11,244 nucleotides of DNA from Flammeovirgaceae bacterium. GTDB lineage: Bacteria; Bacteroidota; Bacteroidia; Cytophagales; Cyclobacteriaceae. Numbering within the stretch: the stretch's first letter is position 1; each line of letters opens with the position of its first letter. The translations under genes were made by a program, and so were the position numbers. The notes beneath the pieces were generated by a model. The model was not told where the DNA came from and made no database searches. It was given only the letters and a program-made list of their open reading frames with translations. Positions 3,144-11,244 of this stretch are shown one piece after another. The DNA is taken from assembly GCA_003228395.1 (NCBI GenBank), contig QIDJ01000319.1:1-11244 (forward strand). The letters are read 5' to 3'.

Positions 3144-4265
3144 ATGGCACAGAAAATCTTAATCCTGGGAGGTTATGGCAACGCCGGACTTCTGATAGCC
3201 AGGCTGCTGCTGCAGGAAACAAATGTCCGGCTTGTTATCTCCGGACGAGATCTGAACCGCGCAAATAAAACAGCAGATGCCTTGAACCGTGAATTCCAGA
3301 CCGACCGCGTTTCAGGCCGGCAAGCCGATGCGGCAAGCACAAACAGCCTTGACGCGGCCTTTGCCGGCGTGGATATGATCCTGGTGGCATCGAGTACCCT
3401 TAAATATGTTCACCAGGTATGTGTCAGCGCCCTGCAGGCAGGCGCCGACTACATGGATATTCAGCTTTCTTCACCGGAAAAACTGGCTGTACTGTACGAT
3501 CTGCAGGAGCAAATCGAGAAAAAGGAACGATGTTTTATCACTGACGGCGGATTTCACCCCGGCGTTCCGGCGGCCATGGTGCGTTACGCGGCGGTCCGGT
3601 TCGATATGCTGGAAACAGCCCATATCAGTGGGGCATTTCAACTGAACTGGAAGGCAATGCAGTTTTCAGAATCCACTACAACGGAGTTTATTGATGAATT
3701 GAAAAATTTTAATCCGCTGGTATTTAAAAATAAGAAATGGGGAAAAATGAGTATGATGGCATTTCCGAAAATTGATTTTGGCGAACCCTTTGGCGTACGT
3801 TACTGCTCACCCATGTTTTTAGAAGAAATGCGTATGTTACCAGATGTTATTCCTGCACTGAAAGAAACGGGATTTTATATCTCCGGGTTCAATTGGATGA
3901 CGGATTACCTCATCATGCCTGTTGCATTTGTCGCCTTAAATCTGTTTGGCAACAAAGCCAAAAGACCGATGGGCAGGCTTTTTGCATGGGGATTGAAAAA
4001 TTTCAGCAAGGCGCCCTTCAAGGCCATTTTACAACTGGAAGCAAAGGGATTGAAGGATAAAAAAGATTGCATAATGCACATGAAACTTGCCCATGATGAT
4101 GCGTATGTGCTTACCACCGTACCCGTTGTTGCCTGTCTGCTGCAATACCTGAACGGGAATATCCGGCGTCCCGGGTTGTGGTTTCAGGCAAATTTGGTTG
4201 AATCAAAACAATTTTTCAAGGATATGGAGAGACTTGGGATTAGAATTATCATTCAAATCAAATAG
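3144..4265 (+). CDS. Saccharopine dehydrogenase-like NAD(P)-binding oxidoreductase
   Basis: A 373-residue protein opening with a Rossmann fold: strand KILILGGYGNAG with the GxGxxG loop at residues 10-15, then a helix and the acidic or basic end of the second strand (VISGRDLNRA, about 31-40), which suggests NADP. The blocks AGVDMILVASS (about 74-84) and QAGADYMDIQ (about 98-107) are typical of the saccharopine dehydrogenase NADP-binding domain. A GG-F-PGVPAAMVRYAA segment follows. The C-terminal half contains a hydrophobic stretch (MTDYLIMPVAFVALNLFG, about 252-269), as in many membrane-associated members of this broad group. The real substrate cannot be told; classical lysine metabolism is unlikely from context. 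There is no clear Shine-Dalgarno before ATG 3144, which is common in Bacteroidota. It stands alone, divergent from the GH172 gene. Confidence 0.8.
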   Translation: MAQKILILGGYGNAGLLIARLLLQETNVRLVISGRDLNRANKTADALNREFQTDRVSGRQADAASTNSLDAAFAGVDMILVASSTLKYVHQVCVSALQAGADYMDIQLSSPEKLAVLYDLQEQIEKKERCFITDGGFHPGVPAAMVRYAAVRFDMLETAHISGAFQLNWKAMQFSESTTTEFIDELKNFNPLVFKNKKWGKMSMMAFPKIDFGEPFGVRYCSPMFLEEMRMLPDVIPALKETGFYISGFNWMTDYLIMPVAFVALNLFGNKAKRPMGRLFAWGLKNFSKAPFKAILQLEAKGLKDKKDCIMHMKLAHDDAYVLTTVPVVACLLQYLNGNIRRPGLWFQANLVESKQFFKDMERLGIRIIIQIK

Positions 4266-4269
4266 TTTA

Positions 4270-4287
4270 CATTAAATTGGTTTAATG
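4270..4287. repeat. Short perfect hairpin after the oxidoreductase gene
   Basis: CATTAAA (4270-4276) and TTTAATG (4281-4287) form a 7-base inverted repeat around TTGG, four bases after the stop codon. There is no T-run behind it, so it is only a weak terminator candidate. Confidence 0.35.
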
Positions 4288-4340
4288 AACAATTTCTGTC
4301 ATACTGCCAGGTCCATTATGACCAATGAAGGTGAATAAAA

Positions 4341-4430
4341 GTGGCGAAACCGGCAGACCATATTGATATCATTGAAGTCACAGAACACAATGTTTCTGAA
4401 GTTGGTATCTACTGTATTAAAAATAAGTGA
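4341..4430 (+). pseudogene. N-terminal stub of a GNAT acetyltransferase
   Basis: A 29-codon frame from GTG 4341 to TGA 4428-4430 contains HIDIIEVTEHNVSEVGIYC followed by IKNK. I recognise this as the extreme N-terminus of a GNAT-type N-acetyltransferase subfamily in which I-E-V-T-x-x-N-V-x-E-V-G is followed by a lysine-rich helix. An AAGGTGA sequence eight bases upstream could serve as ribosome binding site. After the TGA no further GNAT motif is seen in any plus frame, so the acetyl-CoA binding core is missing. The stub sits in the gap between the oxidoreductase and the catalase cassette, a stretch with other signs of insertion. The assignment depends on a short match from memory and could be chance. 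Confidence 0.4.
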
Positions 4431-4576
4431 AGAATGAGACCTGATCCCCATGTGGCGATAACTATTAAAATAAATCGAAAATTTTCATACTGTGAAGGAA
4501 AACCAAATATTCATTTTTTTTACCGTATAATACGCTGTATATATGCAATAATGCTGATATCGGCAGTAGAATATAT

Positions 4577-6170
4577 GTTAGCTGCACAAAACCAAAACTT
4601 GGAAGGAGAAAAAACATGAAAGACCAAAAGAAGAAGTTGACCACCAATGCAGGCGTGCCGGTACCTGACAATCAGAATGTGATGACTGCTGGGCCTCGCG
4701 GACCGCAGTTGCTGCAAGATGTCTGGTTCCTCGAAAAACTCGCTCACTTTGATCGTGAGGTCATCCCAGAGAGGCGTATGCATGCCAAGGGATCCGGGGC
4801 GTATGGAACCTTCACTGTTACCCACGACATTATCCGCTACACCAGGGCGAAGATTTTCTCTGAGATTGGAAAGAAGACCGAACTCTTCACCCGTTTCTCA
4901 ACGGTGGCAGGGGAGCGTGGCGCCGCGGATGCAGAACGTGATATTCGCGGATTTGCCGTGAAATTCTATACAGAAGAGGGAAACTGGGACCTTGTAGGCA
5001 ATAACACGCCTGTCTTCTTTTTGCGTGATCCGCTCAAGTTCCCTGATCTAAATCATGCCGTAAAGCGGGATCCCCGGACGAATCTGCGTAGCGCCCTTAA
5101 TAACTGGGATTTTTGGACATCTTTGCCTGAGGCGCTACATCAGGTGACCATCACTATGAGTGATCGCGGGATTCCATTTTCATACCGTCACATGCACGGC
5201 TTCGGAAGTCACACTTTCAGCCTTATCAATGCCCAAAATGAACGGTTCTGGGTAAAGTTCCATTTTGTGACTCAGCAAGGAATTAAGAATCTCACGGATG
5301 CCGAGGTCGAGGCCATCATCGGCAAGGACCGGGAAAGCCACCAACGCGATCTCTATGAAAGTATTGAGAAAAAGGATTTTCCAAAGTGGACCCTTTTCAT
5401 CCAGGTTATGCCGGAGGAAGAAACCACCAACTGCCCATACAACCCATTCGACCTGACAAAGGTATGGCTTAAAAGAGATTACCCGTTGATTGAGGTCGGT
5501 ATGTTAGAGCTGAATCGCAACCCCCAAAACTATTTTGCCGAGGTCGAACAGTCCGCTTTCAACCCGGCCAATATCGTCCCTGGTATTGGTTTTTCACCCG
5601 ATAAAATGTTACAGGGCCGTCTCTTCTCTTACGGTGATGCACAGCGTTACCGGCTTGGCGTAAACCACCACCTTATTCCGGTCAATGCGCCCCGCTGTCC
5701 TTACCACAGTTACCACCGCGATGGCGCGATGCGCGTTGACGGCAACTATGGTAGCACTATCGGTTATGAGCCCAACCGCTACGGCGAGTGGCAACAGCAA
5801 CCCGACTTTTCAGAACCACCTCTCAGTCTGGAAGGAGCAGCTGGTCATTGGGATCACCGCGAGGACGATGATTACTACACCCAGCCCGGCTTACTATTCC
5901 GTCTGATAAGCCCTGAACAGCAAAGAGCGCTCTTTGCCAATACTGCCCGTGCTATGGGTGACATTCCAGAGGAGATTAAGATTCGCCATATCGGCAATTG
6001 CATGAAAGCCGATCCGGCTTATGGAAAGGGCGTGGCCTACGCTTTGGGAATTTCGTTTGATGATATACCCTGAGAATCATAAGGCAAGCAGCTAACAATC
6101 GCATGAACTCGGACAGCAAAAAGCGCCACTCGCTCCTCGTTCTGCTTTTTGCTGCCGGTGATGCGCAACG
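4577..6170 (+). mobile_element. Integron-type gene cassette carrying the catalase
   Basis: The segment has the anatomy of an integron cassette. It begins at G/TTAGCTGC (4577-4585), has a 38-base leader with a ribosome binding site, one gene, and ends in an attC-like site (6088-6172) 14 bases after the stop. The left-end GTTAGCTGC is the exact reverse complement of the attC R'' arm GCAGCTAAC (6088-6096). In integrons this is expected, because cassette start and R'' come from the same attC when the circle is closed. The mobile unit would be 4578-6170, 1593 bases. No attI, no integrase and no neighbouring attC were seen. The DNA left of 4577 does not look like an attC end, so insertion at a secondary G/TT site is the simplest reading. 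Structure is seen; mechanism is inferred. Confidence 0.7.
4616..6073 (+). CDS. katA: Haem catalase, small-subunit (clade 3) type
   Basis: A 485-residue monofunctional catalase, which converts hydrogen peroxide to water and oxygen in the cytoplasm and protects against oxidative stress. Length and ending fit the small-subunit group; the C-terminal flavodoxin-like domain of large catalases is absent. The distal haem residues are present: His56 in [12 protein letters not shown], Ser95 in [12 protein letters not shown] and Asn129 in [11 protein letters not shown]. The proximal ligand is Tyr338 in [14 protein letters not shown]. The catalase core runs from about residue 15 to 480 with no gap. A strong GGAAGGAG lies nine bases before the ATG, stronger than at most genes here. 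The gene is tightly framed by the two ends of a probable integron cassette and so likely arrived by transfer. No own promoter is visible within the 38-base leader; it probably depends on transcription from upstream. Confidence 0.96.
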
Positions 6171-6176
6171 TTTAAC
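6088..6176 (+). other. attC-like recombination site at the end of the catalase cassette
   Basis: The parts, from the outside in, are: R'' GCAGCTAAC (6088-6096) with AAC facing GTT at 6170-6172; an unpaired spacer (AAT / CAAC); an L-type box CGCAT (6100-6104) with ATGCG (6161-6165); CGG (6110-6112) with CCG (6155-6157); an unpaired A at 6113 acting like an extrahelical base; and a perfect 11-base stem CAGCAAAAAGC (6114-6124) / GCTTTTTGCTG (6144-6154) around a 19-base loop. This R-spacer-L-bulge-variable-tip order is diagnostic for attC sites, and the left half resembles the aadA attC (CTAACAAT...GAAC/CAAG). Crossing over would occur between G6170 and T6171. The bases after it, TTTAAC, belong to the recipient DNA or a next cassette. 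It could alternatively act as a transcription terminator, but no T-run follows. Confidence 0.72.
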
Positions 6177-6184
6177 AAACAGAG

Positions 6185-7165
6185 ATGAGAATGAATACAG
6201 ATACAATTCTATACCTCAGCCGGAAGGATGTTGAGACCGTAGATCTGTCCATGTCTGAGATTATCGATGCATTGGAGGGCATGTTCAAAGAGAAGGGTGA
6301 AGGGCGCATTGAGATGCCGCCCAAGCCCGGAATCCACACACGTAAGGATGCATTCATCCATGCCATGCCTGCGTACATACCCAATATTCAATCCGCAGGG
6401 ATGAAATGGGTTTCCGGTTATCCTGACAATCAAAAGAAGAAACTCCCCTACATAAGCGGTCTTCTTATCCTGAACGACCCGGATAACGGCATCCCGATCG
6501 CCGTGATGGACGCAACGTGGATCACGGCACAACGCACGGGAGCTGCGACCGCCGTTGCAGCGAAATACCTGGCCCGCAAAGACAGTTCAAGTGTGGGTAT
6601 CCTGGCCTGTGGTGTACAGGGCAGAAGCAATCTTCAAGCACTGTCATGCATATTCGAGATTGAGAAGGTGAAGGCATTCGATATTCACCCCGAAGTGGTT
6701 GAGAAATTTGCCAGGGAAATGACAAAGGTCGTACCGGTGGAGATAGAAATTGCAGACAATCCCAAGAATGCCGTTGCCGGTTTGGACCTGGTGGTTACAA
6801 GCGGTCCGATACTAAAGAATCCGGATCCCGTGATCGAGGCCGGCTGGCTGGCTGAGGGTTCCTTTGCCGGCCCGGTGGATTTTGATTCCTACTGGATGGG
6901 AGACGCACTCAGACAGGCAGACAAACTAGCAACGGACGACATAAGCCAGATGGAATTCTATCGCGAATCCGGCTATTTCAAAGACGTACCGCAACCCTAT
7001 GCCGACCTGGGTGAGATTGTTGCGGGCAAGAAACCGGGGAGGGAGAATGCCAACGAACGTACGATCTGCATCAATCTCGGACTTGCCCTGGACGACATGG
7101 CAACAGCCATACTTATCTACAAGAAGGCTATAGAAAATGGAATCGGAACGCAACTTCCGTTGTGA
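6185..7165 (+). CDS. Ornithine cyclodeaminase/mu-crystallin family enzyme
   Basis: A 326-residue protein, the usual family length. Family members are NAD(P)-dependent enzymes acting on amino acids or cyclic imines (ornithine cyclodeaminase, alanine dehydrogenase, ketimine reductase). Visible landmarks are the substrate-side lysine in MKWVSGYP (K74), WITAQRTGAATAVAAKYLAR (R117, about 112-131), the Rossmann loop GILACGVQGRSN (138-149) and the strand KAFDIHP (163-169). The usual GxGxxG glycine before the Cys is Ala141. The usual active-site block is GSFAGPVDFDSYWMGDAL (about 225-242), somewhat divergent. The true reaction is open. The start could be ATG 6185 or 6191; neither has a good Shine-Dalgarno. 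It begins 14 bases after the cassette junction, so the catalase cassette now sits where its leader or promoter should be. Confidence 0.85.
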   Translation: MRMNTDTILYLSRKDVETVDLSMSEIIDALEGMFKEKGEGRIEMPPKPGIHTRKDAFIHAMPAYIPNIQSAGMKWVSGYPDNQKKKLPYISGLLILNDPDNGIPIAVMDATWITAQRTGAATAVAAKYLARKDSSSVGILACGVQGRSNLQALSCIFEIEKVKAFDIHPEVVEKFAREMTKVVPVEIEIADNPKNAVAGLDLVVTSGPILKNPDPVIEAGWLAEGSFAGPVDFDSYWMGDALRQADKLATDDISQMEFYRESGYFKDVPQPYADLGEIVAGKKPGRENANERTICINLGLALDDMATAILIYKKAIENGIGTQLPL

Positions 7166-7249
7166 TCTGATAGGTGGTGCCGTAACTGATATATCTCAAA
7201 ATCGCGTTAGCGTTAAATCAGAACTAAAGCTCGACAAGATAAAGGATTG

Positions 7250-7753
7250 TTATTCTACCTTCTCCAGCAGCCTTTTATCAATACTCACCCGAAGCGCCTG
7301 GTCGATCGTTTCCAGTATTACATAGAATTTTTCTTCACTGTACGGACCGGAGTAGTATCCTACAGCGCCCCGCAGCGGTCCGTCTATCACTTTTACCCGG
7401 TCGCCAGGATCCAGGTCACCAACCGACGTAGTATCTAAAAATAACCCGGAGGCAATAAACCGCTTGATCATCTCCAGTTCACTGACACGCAAGACGGCCG
7501 GCTTTCCGTTATGCCGGATGTTCCAGCTTATCCCTGGTATCTTCAGCACATCCTGTATCCGGTGTTCGTATTCATACACGAATATATATGAATTGAACAA
7601 AGGGGTTTCAATTTTCTTTTTCCGGTCGCTCCACTGCCGCAGCACTTTGTGCACCGGCAAATAGGGTTCAAACCCGAATTGCTTCAGGTATTTTTCTACT
7701 TTTCGCTCCCACCGGCTTTTGGTATAAAAAACCAGCCATTTTTTTTCAGCCAT
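7250..7753 (-). CDS. UpxY-type transcription antiterminator (NusG paralog)
   Basis: A 167-residue specialised NusG-like protein. The N-terminal NGN domain (about 5-100) opens with KKWLVFYTKSRWERKVEKYL and contains LPVHKVLRQWSDRKKKIETP and FNSYIFVY. A C-terminal KOW domain follows (about 114-165, PGDRVKVIDGPLRGAVGYY). In Bacteroidota, UpxY-type proteins ride on RNA polymerase and let it read through long polysaccharide or natural-product operons, normally those they lead. Here nothing follows on the same strand: the next gene is the convergent cyclodeaminase 84 bases away, so this copy has no target operon in sight. It may act elsewhere, or its operon was cut away by rearrangement. Promoter evidence is given separately. 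Confidence 0.88.
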   Translation of the reverse strand: MAEKKWLVFYTKSRWERKVEKYLKQFGFEPYLPVHKVLRQWSDRKKKIETPLFNSYIFVYEYEHRIQDVLKIPGISWNIRHNGKPAVLRVSELEMIKRFIASGLFLDTTSVGDLDPGDRVKVIDGPLRGAVGYYSGPYSEEKFYVILETIDQALRVSIDKRLLEKVE

Positions 7754-7772
7754 TCCGATACATTTAACAGCA

Positions 7773-7780
7773 CAAAAGTA
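7773..7780 (-). promoter_or_regulatory. Bacteroidota -7 promoter element of the UpxY-like gene
   Basis: TACTTTTG on the minus strand matches the Bacteroidota -7 consensus TAnnTTTG exactly and lies 19 bases upstream of the UpxY start codon (7753). A clear -33 TTTG was not found at the usual distance. The 5' leader would be short, unlike the long leaders in front of typical capsule-locus UpxY genes. Confidence 0.45.
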
Positions 7781-8114
7781 TCAGATTTTTGTATTTCATC
7801 TTCATTATTTTTTGTTCGAGTTTCTTTTTACCCGATTTAAATAAAAATTAACGTTAAAACGGATAAGAAAACAACCTTATGAGTATGCTGTGGTCATGGC
7901 AGGATCAGTATCCCCGCCGGAATGGCCCGACAGGCTGGATGTGATCTATGAATTATGATTTTTAACAAAACTGCGACCTGATCGGTCATTGATTAAGATT
8001 ATATTTAACCTATTTTTATGTTTTCTTTACAGGGCACAATTATTTTGATACGTTAAAACCTGAATTGACTTCATTATACAAATACAGCATTTTTAAGCAA
8101 AAAATCGTAACACT
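7781..8114. other. AT-rich intergenic region between divergent genes
   Basis: No gene is supported here; a 21-codon frame from ATG 7879 shows no recognisable motif. The region contains a perfect palindrome TTAACGTTAA (7848-7857) and the direct repeat ACGTTAAAAC at 7851-7860 and again near 8051. It must carry the promoter of the NIF3 operon, but no clear TAnnTTTG box on the plus strand was found. Confidence 0.45.
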
Positions 8115-9212
8115 ATGACGAAGATCACTGAAGTAACCCGTTATCTCGAAATCATTGCACCACCCGCTTACCAGGAGAGTTACGATAATGCCGGGCTGAT
8201 TACAGGGGATCCAGAAACGGAGGTAACAGGTGCGCTGGTGTGCCTTGATTCAACAGAAGAAGTAATAGACGAAGCAATCGGGAAAAACTGTAACCTCGTA
8301 GTAGCCCACCATCCGATTATTTTCAAAGGACTCAAAAAAATTACAGGTAGAAATTATGTTGAAAGGACCATCATAAAAGCCATACAAAACAACATTGCCA
8401 TTTACGCTATCCATACTAACCTTGATAATGTTTCATCCGGAGTAAACCGTAAAATTTGCCAAAAACTTGAACTTGAAAATGTACAGGTATTATCTCCAAA
8501 GAAAGGTGTATTAAGTAAACTGGTGACTTTTATTCCGGAAAAAGACACACCGCGCGTGCTGGAAGCCCTGCACGAAGCCGGGGCCGGCAAGATAGGCGCA
8601 TACGACCACTGCAGTTTTTCAACAGAAGGCACAGGCCGGTTCAAACCCGGTGCAGCGGCAAGTCCGCACATCGGAAAACCGGGGGAGATTGAAAGTGTGA
8701 TTGAAATAAGGGTAGAAGTGATTTTCCCGATTACTCAATGGCCTGCGGTACAGGACGCTTTAAATGAAAGCCACCCGTATGAAGAAGTAGCCTACTATCT
8801 TACATCACTTGACAATACATACAAGGAGGTGGGCAGCGGAATGACCGGTACACTTAAAACCGCCATGGAACCACGGGAATTTTTAAAGTTTTTGAAAGAA
8901 AAAATGGCATTATCTGTCATCCGCCACAGCCGGTTACTGAATAAAAAAATCAGTAAAATAGGCGTATGTGGTGGATCGGGAAGCTTCCTGATCCAAAAAG
9001 CAATAGCCGAAAATACAGACATTTTCGTGACCGGGGATCTGAAATATCACGAGTTTTTTGATAATGAGGGAAAGATTATACTGGCTGACATTGGGCATTA
9101 TGAAAGCGAAGTTTATACAAAAGAACTGCTGCGTGATCTATTAACTAAATATTTTAATACTTTTGCAGTCGATTTATCAGAAACGGTAACAAATCCGGTC
9201 AACTATTATTAA
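8115..9212 (+). CDS. NIF3/DUF34 family dinuclear metal-centre protein
   Basis: A 365-residue member of the NIF3 (YbgI, YqfO, DUF34) family; several genomes label it GTP cyclohydrolase 1 type 2, though its physiological role is not settled. Metal ligands are visible: H65 and H66 in VVAHHPIIF, H100 and D104 in AIHTNLDN, and H328 and E332 in DIGHYESE. Between the two NIF3 halves lies a PII/CutA-like insertion (about residues 127-230, including KLVTFIP, AYDHCSFSTEGTGRF and SHPYEEVAYY), giving the long form common in Bacteroidota and Firmicutes. The N-terminal YDNAGLITGD is also typical. There is no strong Shine-Dalgarno before ATG 8115. It is the first gene of an operon with the zinc-ribbon gene nine bases downstream, an association often seen in Bacteroidota. 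Confidence 0.95.
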   Translation: MTKITEVTRYLEIIAPPAYQESYDNAGLITGDPETEVTGALVCLDSTEEVIDEAIGKNCNLVVAHHPIIFKGLKKITGRNYVERTIIKAIQNNIAIYAIHTNLDNVSSGVNRKICQKLELENVQVLSPKKGVLSKLVTFIPEKDTPRVLEALHEAGAGKIGAYDHCSFSTEGTGRFKPGAAASPHIGKPGEIESVIEIRVEVIFPITQWPAVQDALNESHPYEEVAYYLTSLDNTYKEVGSGMTGTLKTAMEPREFLKFLKEKMALSVIRHSRLLNKKISKIGVCGGSGSFLIQKAIAENTDIFVTGDLKYHEFFDNEGKIILADIGHYESEVYTKELLRDLLTKYFNTFAVDLSETVTNPVNYY

Positions 9213-9221
9213 AATTTATAG

Positions 9222-10001
9222 ATGGAAAGCACAGTACCACAAAAATTAGACGCACTTATAAAACTTCAGTCCATTGATTCCAAATTAAACGAGATCATTA
9301 AGGTACGTGGGGCATTACCCGAAGAAGTCCAGGATCTGGAAGATGAGCTGGCGGGGTATGAAACAAGAATTGAAAAGTATAACCAGGAGTTAAGTGATCT
9401 GGAACTGGAAATTGCCAATAAGCGAAACGCAATAAAAGATTCTGAGAAACTCATACAAAAGTATGAAGAACAGCAAATGAATGTTCGGAACAACCGGGAA
9501 TACGATGCGGTGTCGAAAGAAATTGAGCTTCAGACACTCGAAATTCAGATTTCCGAAAAACGTATAAACGAAGCCGATGAAAAAATTCTGGCGAAAAAGG
9601 AAGAGATCGAAGAAACCAACAATATCAGGATTGAAAGACAGAAAGATCTCGATAGCAAGAAAGATGAACTGAAAGTTCTGCTGGAAGAAAGTGAAGAAGA
9701 AGAAATAAAGCTAATTAAAGAGCGTGATAAAGCAGCAAAAAAAATAGAGGAACGGCTGTTTAATTCCTATGAGAAAATAAGGGACAATGCGCGAAATGGC
9801 CTTGCAGTGGTGTCAGTAAAGCGGGGCGCATGTGGCGGCTGTTTTGCAGTTGTACCTCCTCAACGGCAGGTTGAAATCAAAGAACGTAAAAAACTGATCG
9901 TCTGTGAACATTGTGGCCGGATACTGGCCGATGTGGATAATATACCTGAAGTGGTAGTAACCAAGCCCAAAAGAACCGCCAGAAGGAAAAAGACTGCATA
10001 A
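9222..10001 (+). CDS. Coiled-coil protein with C4 zinc ribbon (DUF164-like)
   Basis: A 259-residue protein. Residues about 10-190 are a long charged coiled-coil hairpin (repeated E/K/L/I heptads) with the family motif NNREYDAVSKE (90-100) at the turn. A C-terminal zinc ribbon follows, with Cys204, Cys207, Cys228 and Cys231 in CGGC...CEHC. A lysine/arginine-rich tail (KPKRTARRKK) ends the protein and may touch nucleic acid. Related proteins such as Helicobacter HP0958 and chlamydial CT398 bind RNA or sigma-54/flagellar partners, but no function can be assigned here. It is cotranscribed with the NIF3 gene. The stop is followed at once by the reading frame of the next gene. Confidence 0.93.
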   Translation: MESTVPQKLDALIKLQSIDSKLNEIIKVRGALPEEVQDLEDELAGYETRIEKYNQELSDLELEIANKRNAIKDSEKLIQKYEEQQMNVRNNREYDAVSKEIELQTLEIQISEKRINEADEKILAKKEEIEETNNIRIERQKDLDSKKDELKVLLEESEEEEIKLIKERDKAAKKIEERLFNSYEKIRDNARNGLAVVSVKRGACGGCFAVVPPQRQVEIKERKKLIVCEHCGRILADVDNIPEVVVTKPKRTARRKKTA

Positions 10002-10012
10002 ACTTAATTTTA

Positions 10013-11244
10013 TTGCGTAATTTCAAGTATATAGAGAAGCGAAAGGCAGGCATTTTATCCTGCCTTTTTTTGTCATTCACCAGCCTTGCACAAGATAATT
10101 ACGATAAATGGCAATTCGATCGTGCGCTGGCAGATGCTTACAGGTACAGTATCGCTTTGCAAATCAGCAAGAGTAAAGATTTACTTGATTCATACTCCGA
10201 TAAACAACATTATGGATGGTTGTATCTCAACCATATCAATGAGGTTATTGAACTATTCATTAACGAGGATGAATCGAAATTCCATGATTTTGAGGATAAC
10301 ACGGATCAGCGCCTCGAAATACTGGATAATGCTCCTGAAAGCCCATTTAAAGCATTTTATATCGCCGAAATCAAGCTTCACAAATCTTTCCTTCACCTCA
10401 AATTTGGAGAAGAGCTCTCAGCGGCATGGTATTTCAGACAAGCTTACCGCCTTACTATGAAAAACATAAAGGAATACCCAGGTTTTATATTCAACAAAAA
10501 ACCCGCCGGGTTGCAGCATATACTGATCGGATCGGCGCCCGAAAAGCACCAATGGCTGCTTAGTCTGCTTGGGTTTGAAGGCTCGGTTGATACCGGTTTG
10601 GAAGAATTGCAGGCCTTTGCAAACAGCAATACTGTATTTTCTATGGAAACTGACATCCTGCTCGCATTCATATACTCCTATTTAATGCAGGAGCATCAGC
10701 GTGGAATGGAAATTATCAAAAAGTACGAAGACAGTCTGTATTCAAACCTGCTATTGAATTACGCGCTGGCTTCCATTCTGATTAAAAACGCACAAAGTGA
10801 AGAAGCGCTCCGCGTGTTGGAAAATTTTCAGCAAACAGATCACATTCTTTTTCCGTTTTCCGATTATCAAAAAGGAACTATATTACTACAAAAAGGATCG
10901 TATAACCCGTCGATCCGGGCATTCCGGCAGTTTCTCTCCAACCACAACGGTACAAACTATATCAAAGATGCGCTGTATAAAACCGGATTAAACTATCTGA
11001 TGCTTGATAACCCTCCCCGGGCAAATGCATTTTTTAGTCAGGCCGAAGCGCGCGGTCACTCGCTAACCGAAGCAGATAAATATGCCAGTCACGCACTGAA
11101 ACAACCACTCTCGGATAAAAATATACTTAAATTACGGCTATTCACAGACGGCGGGTATTACGATGAAGCCCGTTTAGTAATTGCTAAAATCGAAAACACT
11201 ACGTTCTCAAACGAGAAAGACCGTGTGGAGTTTATTTACAGGCA
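10013..11244 (+). CDS. Secreted TPR-like repeat protein, incomplete at the right edge
   Basis: One open frame runs from just after the zinc-ribbon stop to the window end. There is no ATG in any plus frame between 10002 and 10080; the only sensible start is TTG 10013. This gives a clear Sec signal: basic KRK, hydrophobic AGILSCLFLSF, cleavage at SLA/Q27. The mature protein begins QDNYDKWQFDRALADAYRYS. The rest is helical and repeat-like. A segment near residues 161-205 (NKKPAGLQHILIGSAPEKHQ, WLLSLLGFEGSVDTGLEELQ) faintly resembles IML2/TTC39 (DUF3808) proteins. TPR-like helix pairs follow (about 246-272, 283-346, 380-395, e.g. GSYNPSIRAFRQFL and GGYYDEARLVIAKIE). It probably acts in the periplasm or at the outer membrane. 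At least 410 residues are in the window; the C-terminus is missing. A frame error in the T-run at 10065-10071 could also explain the absent ATG. Confidence 0.8.
   Translation, partial: MRNFKYIEKRKAGILSCLFLSFTSLAQDNYDKWQFDRALADAYRYSIALQISKSKDLLDSYSDKQHYGWLYLNHINEVIELFINEDESKFHDFEDNTDQRLEILDNAPESPFKAFYIAEIKLHKSFLHLKFGEELSAAWYFRQAYRLTMKNIKEYPGFIFNKKPAGLQHILIGSAPEKHQWLLSLLGFEGSVDTGLEELQAFANSNTVFSMETDILLAFIYSYLMQEHQRGMEIIKKYEDSLYSNLLLNYALASILIKNAQSEEALRVLENFQQTDHILFPFSDYQKGTILLQKGSYNPSIRAFRQFLSNHNGTNYIKDALYKTGLNYLMLDNPPRANAFFSQAEARGHSLTEADKYASHALKQPLSDKNILKLRLFTDGGYYDEARLVIAKIENTTFSNEKDRVEFIYR
10043..10071 (+). terminator. Terminator-like hairpin lying inside the next gene's signal-peptide codons
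   Basis: AAGGCAGG (10043-10050) and CCTGCCTT (10059-10066) form a perfect 8-base stem around an 8-base loop, followed by a T-run to 10071. By itself this is a textbook intrinsic terminator for the NIF3/zinc-ribbon operon. However, the reading frame of the downstream TPR-like gene runs through it, and exactly these bases encode the core of its signal peptide (AGILSCLFL). It may attenuate expression of that gene. Confidence 0.7.

Follow-up and report, generated by a model that had tools for sequence, protein, structure and literature searches.

In an 11,244-nucleotide stretch of Bacteroidota DNA (the window, which is the whole of contig C21 of genome G000), the segment at 4578-6170 is quite probably a gene cassette that an integron integrase (IntI) inserted at one member of a dispersed family of attI-type sites, a family that would descend from integrons native to the genus and whose integrase genes (intI) would by now be largely broken or deleted. 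The preliminary description of this DNA had proposed an integron-type cassette carrying a whole catalase in a Bacteroidota genome, and our analysis supports that proposal. It had also taken the cassette to be simply standing alone; here the picture changed, since the left edge turned out to be an attI-type site that is specific to the genus and has 13 strong copies, of which three adjoin incomplete intI. An empty site, such as had been envisaged in related genomes, was not found.

Genome G000, fragmented into 396 contigs that total 2.06 Mb (58.7% complete), was compared with two congeners, G001 (95% complete) and G002 (98% complete), and these three make up the genus set. Because matches to the Por-secretion-tail family occur in all three (15 in G000, 18 in G001 and 28 in G002), Bacteroidota is a fair label for G000; among the 14 control genomes, such matches occur in two, those of Bacteroides ihuae and Deinobacterium chartae.

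Features of the window, and first segments behind attI-type copies that have an attC-like site of their own (+ distances are those of that site)
Feature	Position	Strand	Basis or content
Saccharopine-dehydrogenase-like gene (synteny marker)	3144..4265	+	Pfam PF03435; DNA matches to G002:C161
attI-type site	4511..4577	+	Ends at the crossover G|TT (4577/4578); 13 strong genus copies
Start core GTTAGCTGC	4577..4585	+	Exact complement of R'' in the cassette's own attC-like site
Probable gene cassette (leader, catalase and attC-like site)	4578..6170	+	Cassette score; G+C 0.51 vs 0.41 for 7166-11244
Cassette leader	4578..4615	+	Purine-rich AAGGAG ahead of ATG
Catalase, 485 aa, full length	4616..6073	+	Pfam PF00199 and PF06628
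attC-like site, 89 bases	6088..6176	+	R'' AGCTAAC 6090-6096; closing GTTTAAC 6170-6176
Segment past the crossover	6171..7248	+	Ornithine cyclodeaminase-family gene 6185-7165, Pfam PF02423
NusG-family gene	7250..7753	-	Profile match; start of DNA common to congeners
First segment at the window copy	+1513		Catalase
First segment at the G002:C10 copy (55 kb)	+1621		428-aa protein without Pfam match
First segment at the G002:C119 copy	+776		Small ORF and PIN-domain protein
First segment at the G002:C57 copy	+489		80-aa ORF; pairing at 6/7 bases

Boundaries of the catalase cassette

The gene product resembles monofunctional haem catalases (Pfam PF00199; PDB 2isa) in being full-length, with residues 5-481 aligning to PDB chain 2isa_A, and differs from them in apparently being carried as an integron cassette. 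Both 9-mers of the preliminary description are exact: GTTAGCTGC (4577-4585) lies 30 bases before the ATG at 4616, and GCAGCTAAC (6088-6096) lies 14 bases after the stop at 6073. The first bases past the crossover do pair with R'' of the cassette's own attC-like site, as had been claimed, and they do so at nine of nine bases. With both strands counted, GTTAGCTGC occurs exactly twice in the window, while 200 shuffles gave a mean of 0.06 occurrences and no shuffle with two.

The attC-type hairpin that had been placed behind the catalase ORF is likewise present, by its fold and by its cassette score, although a plain attC scan, which looks for R'' and R' of an integrated site, did not report 6088-6176. 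The scan missed it because the R' now present (GTTTAAC) matches R'' at only 3/7 positions; such poor agreement is expected, without amounting to proof, if R' belongs to the next segment, and in the closing GTTTAAC the bases after the G are assigned to that segment. The stem is long and imperfect with unpaired bases on one side, and the stretch 6084-6178 folds better than its shuffles by a modest margin (z -2.65 for the top strand and -1.97 for the bottom strand). Counted from the start of R'', bases 16-17, 20 and 24 are unpaired in the top-strand fold; in the seven attC sites of an Aliivibrio array, taken for comparison, bases 16 and 23 are unpaired. We also aligned 17 attC sites from other integrons (three of 17 scan matches were dropped as false and three of four others added), and the right arms came out misaligned. 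No Rfam family matched the window at its gathering score, and a terminator scan reported nothing at 6088-6176.

The scripted cassette score combines the 9-base pairing across a gene with the inner arms and the closing GTT, and it was computed for 396 ORFs that are 80 aa or longer and have complete flanks, on 21 stretches of the three genus genomes. At 22.5 the catalase cassette ranks third, the fourth ORF scoring 16.0 and the highest shuffled-flank control (one mononucleotide shuffle per ORF, n=396) reaching 15. The top score, 24.5, belongs to a 464-aa ORF (8161-9555) on the minus strand of G002:C64 (L107 8028-9580), where the start core GTTGTAAAA pairs with TTTTACAAC behind the stop and a long hairpin follows; this is probably another cassette, situated away from any attI-type copy. 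Second, at 23.5, is a small ORF on the minus strand of G002:C10 (L109 844-1257), with pairing of GTTGTGTGC and GCACACAAC and a hairpin.

A sigma-70 scan of 4250-6300 gave seven matches against 3.0 expected (sd 1.6), none of them on the + strand within 4400-4616. Bacteroidota use promoter types other than the sigma-70 consensus. The catalase may be expressed at this locus.

The attI-type site family and its integrase remnants

Repeats that are 75-88% identical to bases 4505-4582 occur in G000, G001 and G002. The strong copies (two in G000, three in G001 and eight in G002) align over about 75 bases up to ...TATTGGCAGTAGAATATATG|TT and diverge shortly past that point. A sequence-only model, R1, was built from the 13 copies, whose own matches to it hold by construction, and searched against 20 genomes it found no further copy above 34 bits; nine other matches, all below 34 bits, were left out of the count, and one of them, of 19.6 bits, is the single match in the 17 non-genus genomes. 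IMG/VR had no match to the element core. A reading of the element as a disguised attC, by way of its inverted repeat, was rejected, the shuffle p being below 0.05 in five of 15 copies and 0.20 in the window.

Three of the 13 copies, each of them in G002 (C64, C10 and C119), have incomplete intI next to them. In C64 the element adjoins an interrupted intI whose main piece scores 279.8 bits with TIGR02249 (cut-off 265 bits), which makes G002 the only one of 22 genomes with this profile over cut-off; the first 64 residues are missing, and the gap holds an unrelated ORF that looks transposase-like by eye. The C10 copy has an N-terminal intI piece (residues 1-39) that then diverges 25 bases before the contig end, and the C119 copy a degenerate N-terminal piece (residues 1-42); both pieces start 124-125 bases from G|TT and run divergently. 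The element beside these pieces has the layout of an attI, and the name is given by position and homology; on the same two grounds only, the left edge of the first cassette is called an attI-type site.

Intact intI was recognised in none of the three genus genomes. The window contains no intI pieces by tblastn, and the assembly of G000 has no intI over cut-off, a result that holds for the fetched assembly and, at 58.7% completeness, not for the genome. In the window the saccharopine-dehydrogenase-like gene has the attI-type site behind it. A homologue of the gene is found in G002:C161, where intI pieces on the opposite strand, covering residues 124-164 and 1-30, come next and the start of an attI-like region stands at the contig end. 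The window and G002:C161 may represent one locus at which intI was broken in G002 and deleted in G000; this we infer rather than read from an alignment, because the intervening DNA is too different to align well.

Two further candidates were not accepted as intI: an IntI-like fragment in G002:C136 resembles an XerC-like recombinase of G000:C396, and the TIGR02249 match in G000:C396, which consists of two pieces skipping the middle of the model, was taken for an ordinary tyrosine recombinase. G002:C127 (L216) has a weak IntI-like match. No close IntI relative (P0004) was found at E 1e-90 in 390 sampled genomes of the order, a sample with no known-positive genome among them. IMG/VR contained 47 IntI relatives at 38-73% identity, of which 33 were scanned for attC, with four matches.

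At four of the 13 copies the first segment ends in an attC-like site with which its own start core pairs (see the table). Behind the other nine no own attC was recognised, two of these leaving the contig within 410 bases; the proteins encoded behind copies without a clear own attC include peroxiredoxin, cyclase-domain, arginase-family and DUF885 proteins. With 13 copies, intI at three and an own attC at four, we read the catalase as the first cassette behind an attI-type site from which intI is gone, and, given such a family with incomplete intI at three copies, it appears to be left over from integrons that the genus itself possessed. An integrase, presumably the IntI of this genus, would have joined a circular cassette, through its folded attC, to the G|TT of the attI-type site, and so placed the catalase, together with its ribosome-binding leader, in first position there. 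Loss of intI at the locus would then have frozen the cassette in place, and decay of native integrons in this manner would leave an attI-type site with one or few cassettes.

Some copies have neighbours of a different kind. A peroxiredoxin gene follows an attI-type copy both in G001:C13 (L074 401-472) and in G002:C10 (L068 11587-12501), with different upstream genes in the two, and in G002:C10 a second attI-type copy stands directly behind the peroxiredoxin. Upstream of the attI-type G|TT there is an attC-like site at a distance of 125 bases in G002:C136 (L070 2686-2939) and an attC-like remnant at 112 bases at the G001:C41 copy (L110), as if the attI-type site were itself carried like a mini-cassette.

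The attI-type sites could have spread by recombination, as the 3' site of unusual cassettes, instead of being left behind by the decay of complete integrons. The attI-peroxiredoxin-attI arrangement and the attC-like sites upstream of the element would suit such a history, for which PMC12901181 offers a precedent in class 1 and 2 integrons; we consider it unlikely, as the element was nowhere seen in a mobile form and three of the eight strong G002 copies keep adjoining intI pieces, which fits decay of complete integrons. It is a rather doubtful proposition that a stray cassette entered a non-specific G|TT (attG-type) on a chromosome that had never carried an integron, the left flank being a mere host repeat. 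That G000 has no integrase over cut-off and that most copies of the element are without intI would agree with it, and attG insertion is mentioned in PMC12901181, but the target is one of 13 copies of one element rather than a non-specific G|TT, the attI layout recurs beside incomplete intI at three loci, and four of the 13 copies are followed by a segment that has an attC-like site of its own. Finally, a reading without any integron, in which the repeat serves regulation in the genus and chance or a transcription terminator accounts for the hairpin and the 9-base pairing, is highly improbable: the element does lie close upstream of genes, peroxiredoxin and catalase each follow a copy, and the hairpin z-scores are modest, but chance fares poorly against the 9-mer shuffles and the cassette scores, the terminator scan is blank at the hairpin, and intI pieces occupy the attI position.

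Origin of the catalase and the surrounding DNA

Relatives of the catalase occur in 12 of 58 other related genomes, at 58% identity at best, and none was found in the congeners G001 and G002; the gene is apparently foreign to the family. Among at least 80 catalase loci from a species-genome collection, the nearest are those of a Nitrospirae MAG (L114, 90%) and an uncultured Hippea MAG (L115, 88%). Leaders and tails were compared at 22 of these at least 80 loci, and 27 were searched for intI. From the GTTA core to the ATG, the L114 leader resembles that of the window, with a score of 59 against a maximum of 39 in 200 shuffles of the L114 stretch, while upstream of the core the alignment is gappy; a Desulfobulbaceae leader (L116), at 46, is also above that maximum. 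Behind its catalase L115 has AAGCAGCTAACAAT in common with the window, with a tail score of 36 against a shuffle maximum of 35, and the L114 tail, at 29, falls within the shuffle range (maximum 35). At 2136-2240, L115 has the same R'' (GCAGCTAAC) as the window, with a different inner stem and no clear R'. The L114 genome has two integron-integrase matches over cut-off and the L115 genome one, below cut-off and with an internal stop; an integrase over cut-off was present in 10 of the 27 catalase-bearing genomes tested. Given these likenesses and the integrase genes, the cassette form may have existed before it arrived here. A catalase on a Raoultella plasmid has IS, hydrolase and Tn3-type genes as annotated neighbours.

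To the right, the segment 6171-7248 has a G+C of 0.51, equal to that of the catalase cassette, and its ornithine cyclodeaminase-family protein has no match above 32% identity in 14 related genomes. Neither the plain attC scan nor the cassette score revealed an attC behind the gene, and the segment is possibly a second cassette that has lost its attC. Beyond it the window matches G002:C127, with 83% identity over 7249-7906 and 86% over 7912-11244. A wrongly binned contig is spoken against, because both flanks of the catalase belong to the genus.

The left part of the window has several features of its own. Positions 877-939 are a short dispersed repeat, with 80-88% matches at several places in all three genus genomes, and 1579-1631 and 2-71 are further short dispersed genus repeats with matches at fewer places. 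A ParE-type toxin gene (152-463, Pfam PF05016) adjoins a same-strand region that possibly encodes a partner antitoxin (within 152-715). At 1152-1451, a 99-aa sugar-isomerase-like TIM-barrel piece covers only the end of its Pfam model (145-248 of 249) and is probably a gene remnant.

Relation to known integrons

The locus is like a sedentary chromosomal integron in its attI-type site, its G|TT crossover, its cassette with an own attC-like site and the incomplete intI at some copies of the site. It differs in that many attI-type copies are dispersed with one or few cassettes each, and from a complete integron in that the window has no intI and none intact was recognised in the three genus genomes. 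A cassette without integrase recalls the CALIN elements, which PMC9024848 describes as attC sites without integrase, thought to be degraded integrons; unlike these, the window has an attI-type site, and its single recognised attC-like site compares with the default of at least two in IntegronFinder 2. Attention is also drawn, in PMC12901181, to attI-derived sites as parts of cassettes: the delta-attI-type cassettes of class 1 and 2 integrons resemble the present case in having attI sequence away from intI and near cassettes, but there the attI pieces lie downstream of resistance genes in mobile integrons, whereas here a chromosomal site family lies upstream of first cassettes in Bacteroidota. 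Insertions at attG share with this locus a cassette at a chromosomal G|TT; here the target is instead a family of repeated sites, some of which have intI pieces beside them.

The phyla with integrons listed in PMC8618304 include Bacteroidota, and in the survey of PMC9024848 Bacteroidetes gained one complete integron (Salinibacter). According to the same survey, attI sites of other classes than class 1 are poorly described and go undetected by IntegronFinder, so multi-copy attI relics would escape such surveys. A literature search at the level of titles and abstract beginnings, which is weak evidence, found neither a catalase cassette nor dispersed attI copies.

The cassette itself is well supported, its cargo is unusual and its host uncommon, and the site family appears to be decaying. 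A dispersed site family might also be a distributed integron, in which one integrase would serve, or would once have served, a dozen dispersed attI sites, each with an expressed gene in first position. We think this improbable; if true, whole enzymes such as catalase would be domesticated at chromosomal loci of their own and not in one long array. The surprise lies more in the site family than in the catalase. The family gives a sequence handle on integron decay, on the fixation of single cassettes as chromosomal genes and on a possible spread of the attI sites themselves. With the catalase, a complete 1.5-kb oxidative-stress enzyme would join the cassette cargo in Bacteroidota, and the locus suggests how captured genes may become fixed where integrons had been considered rare.
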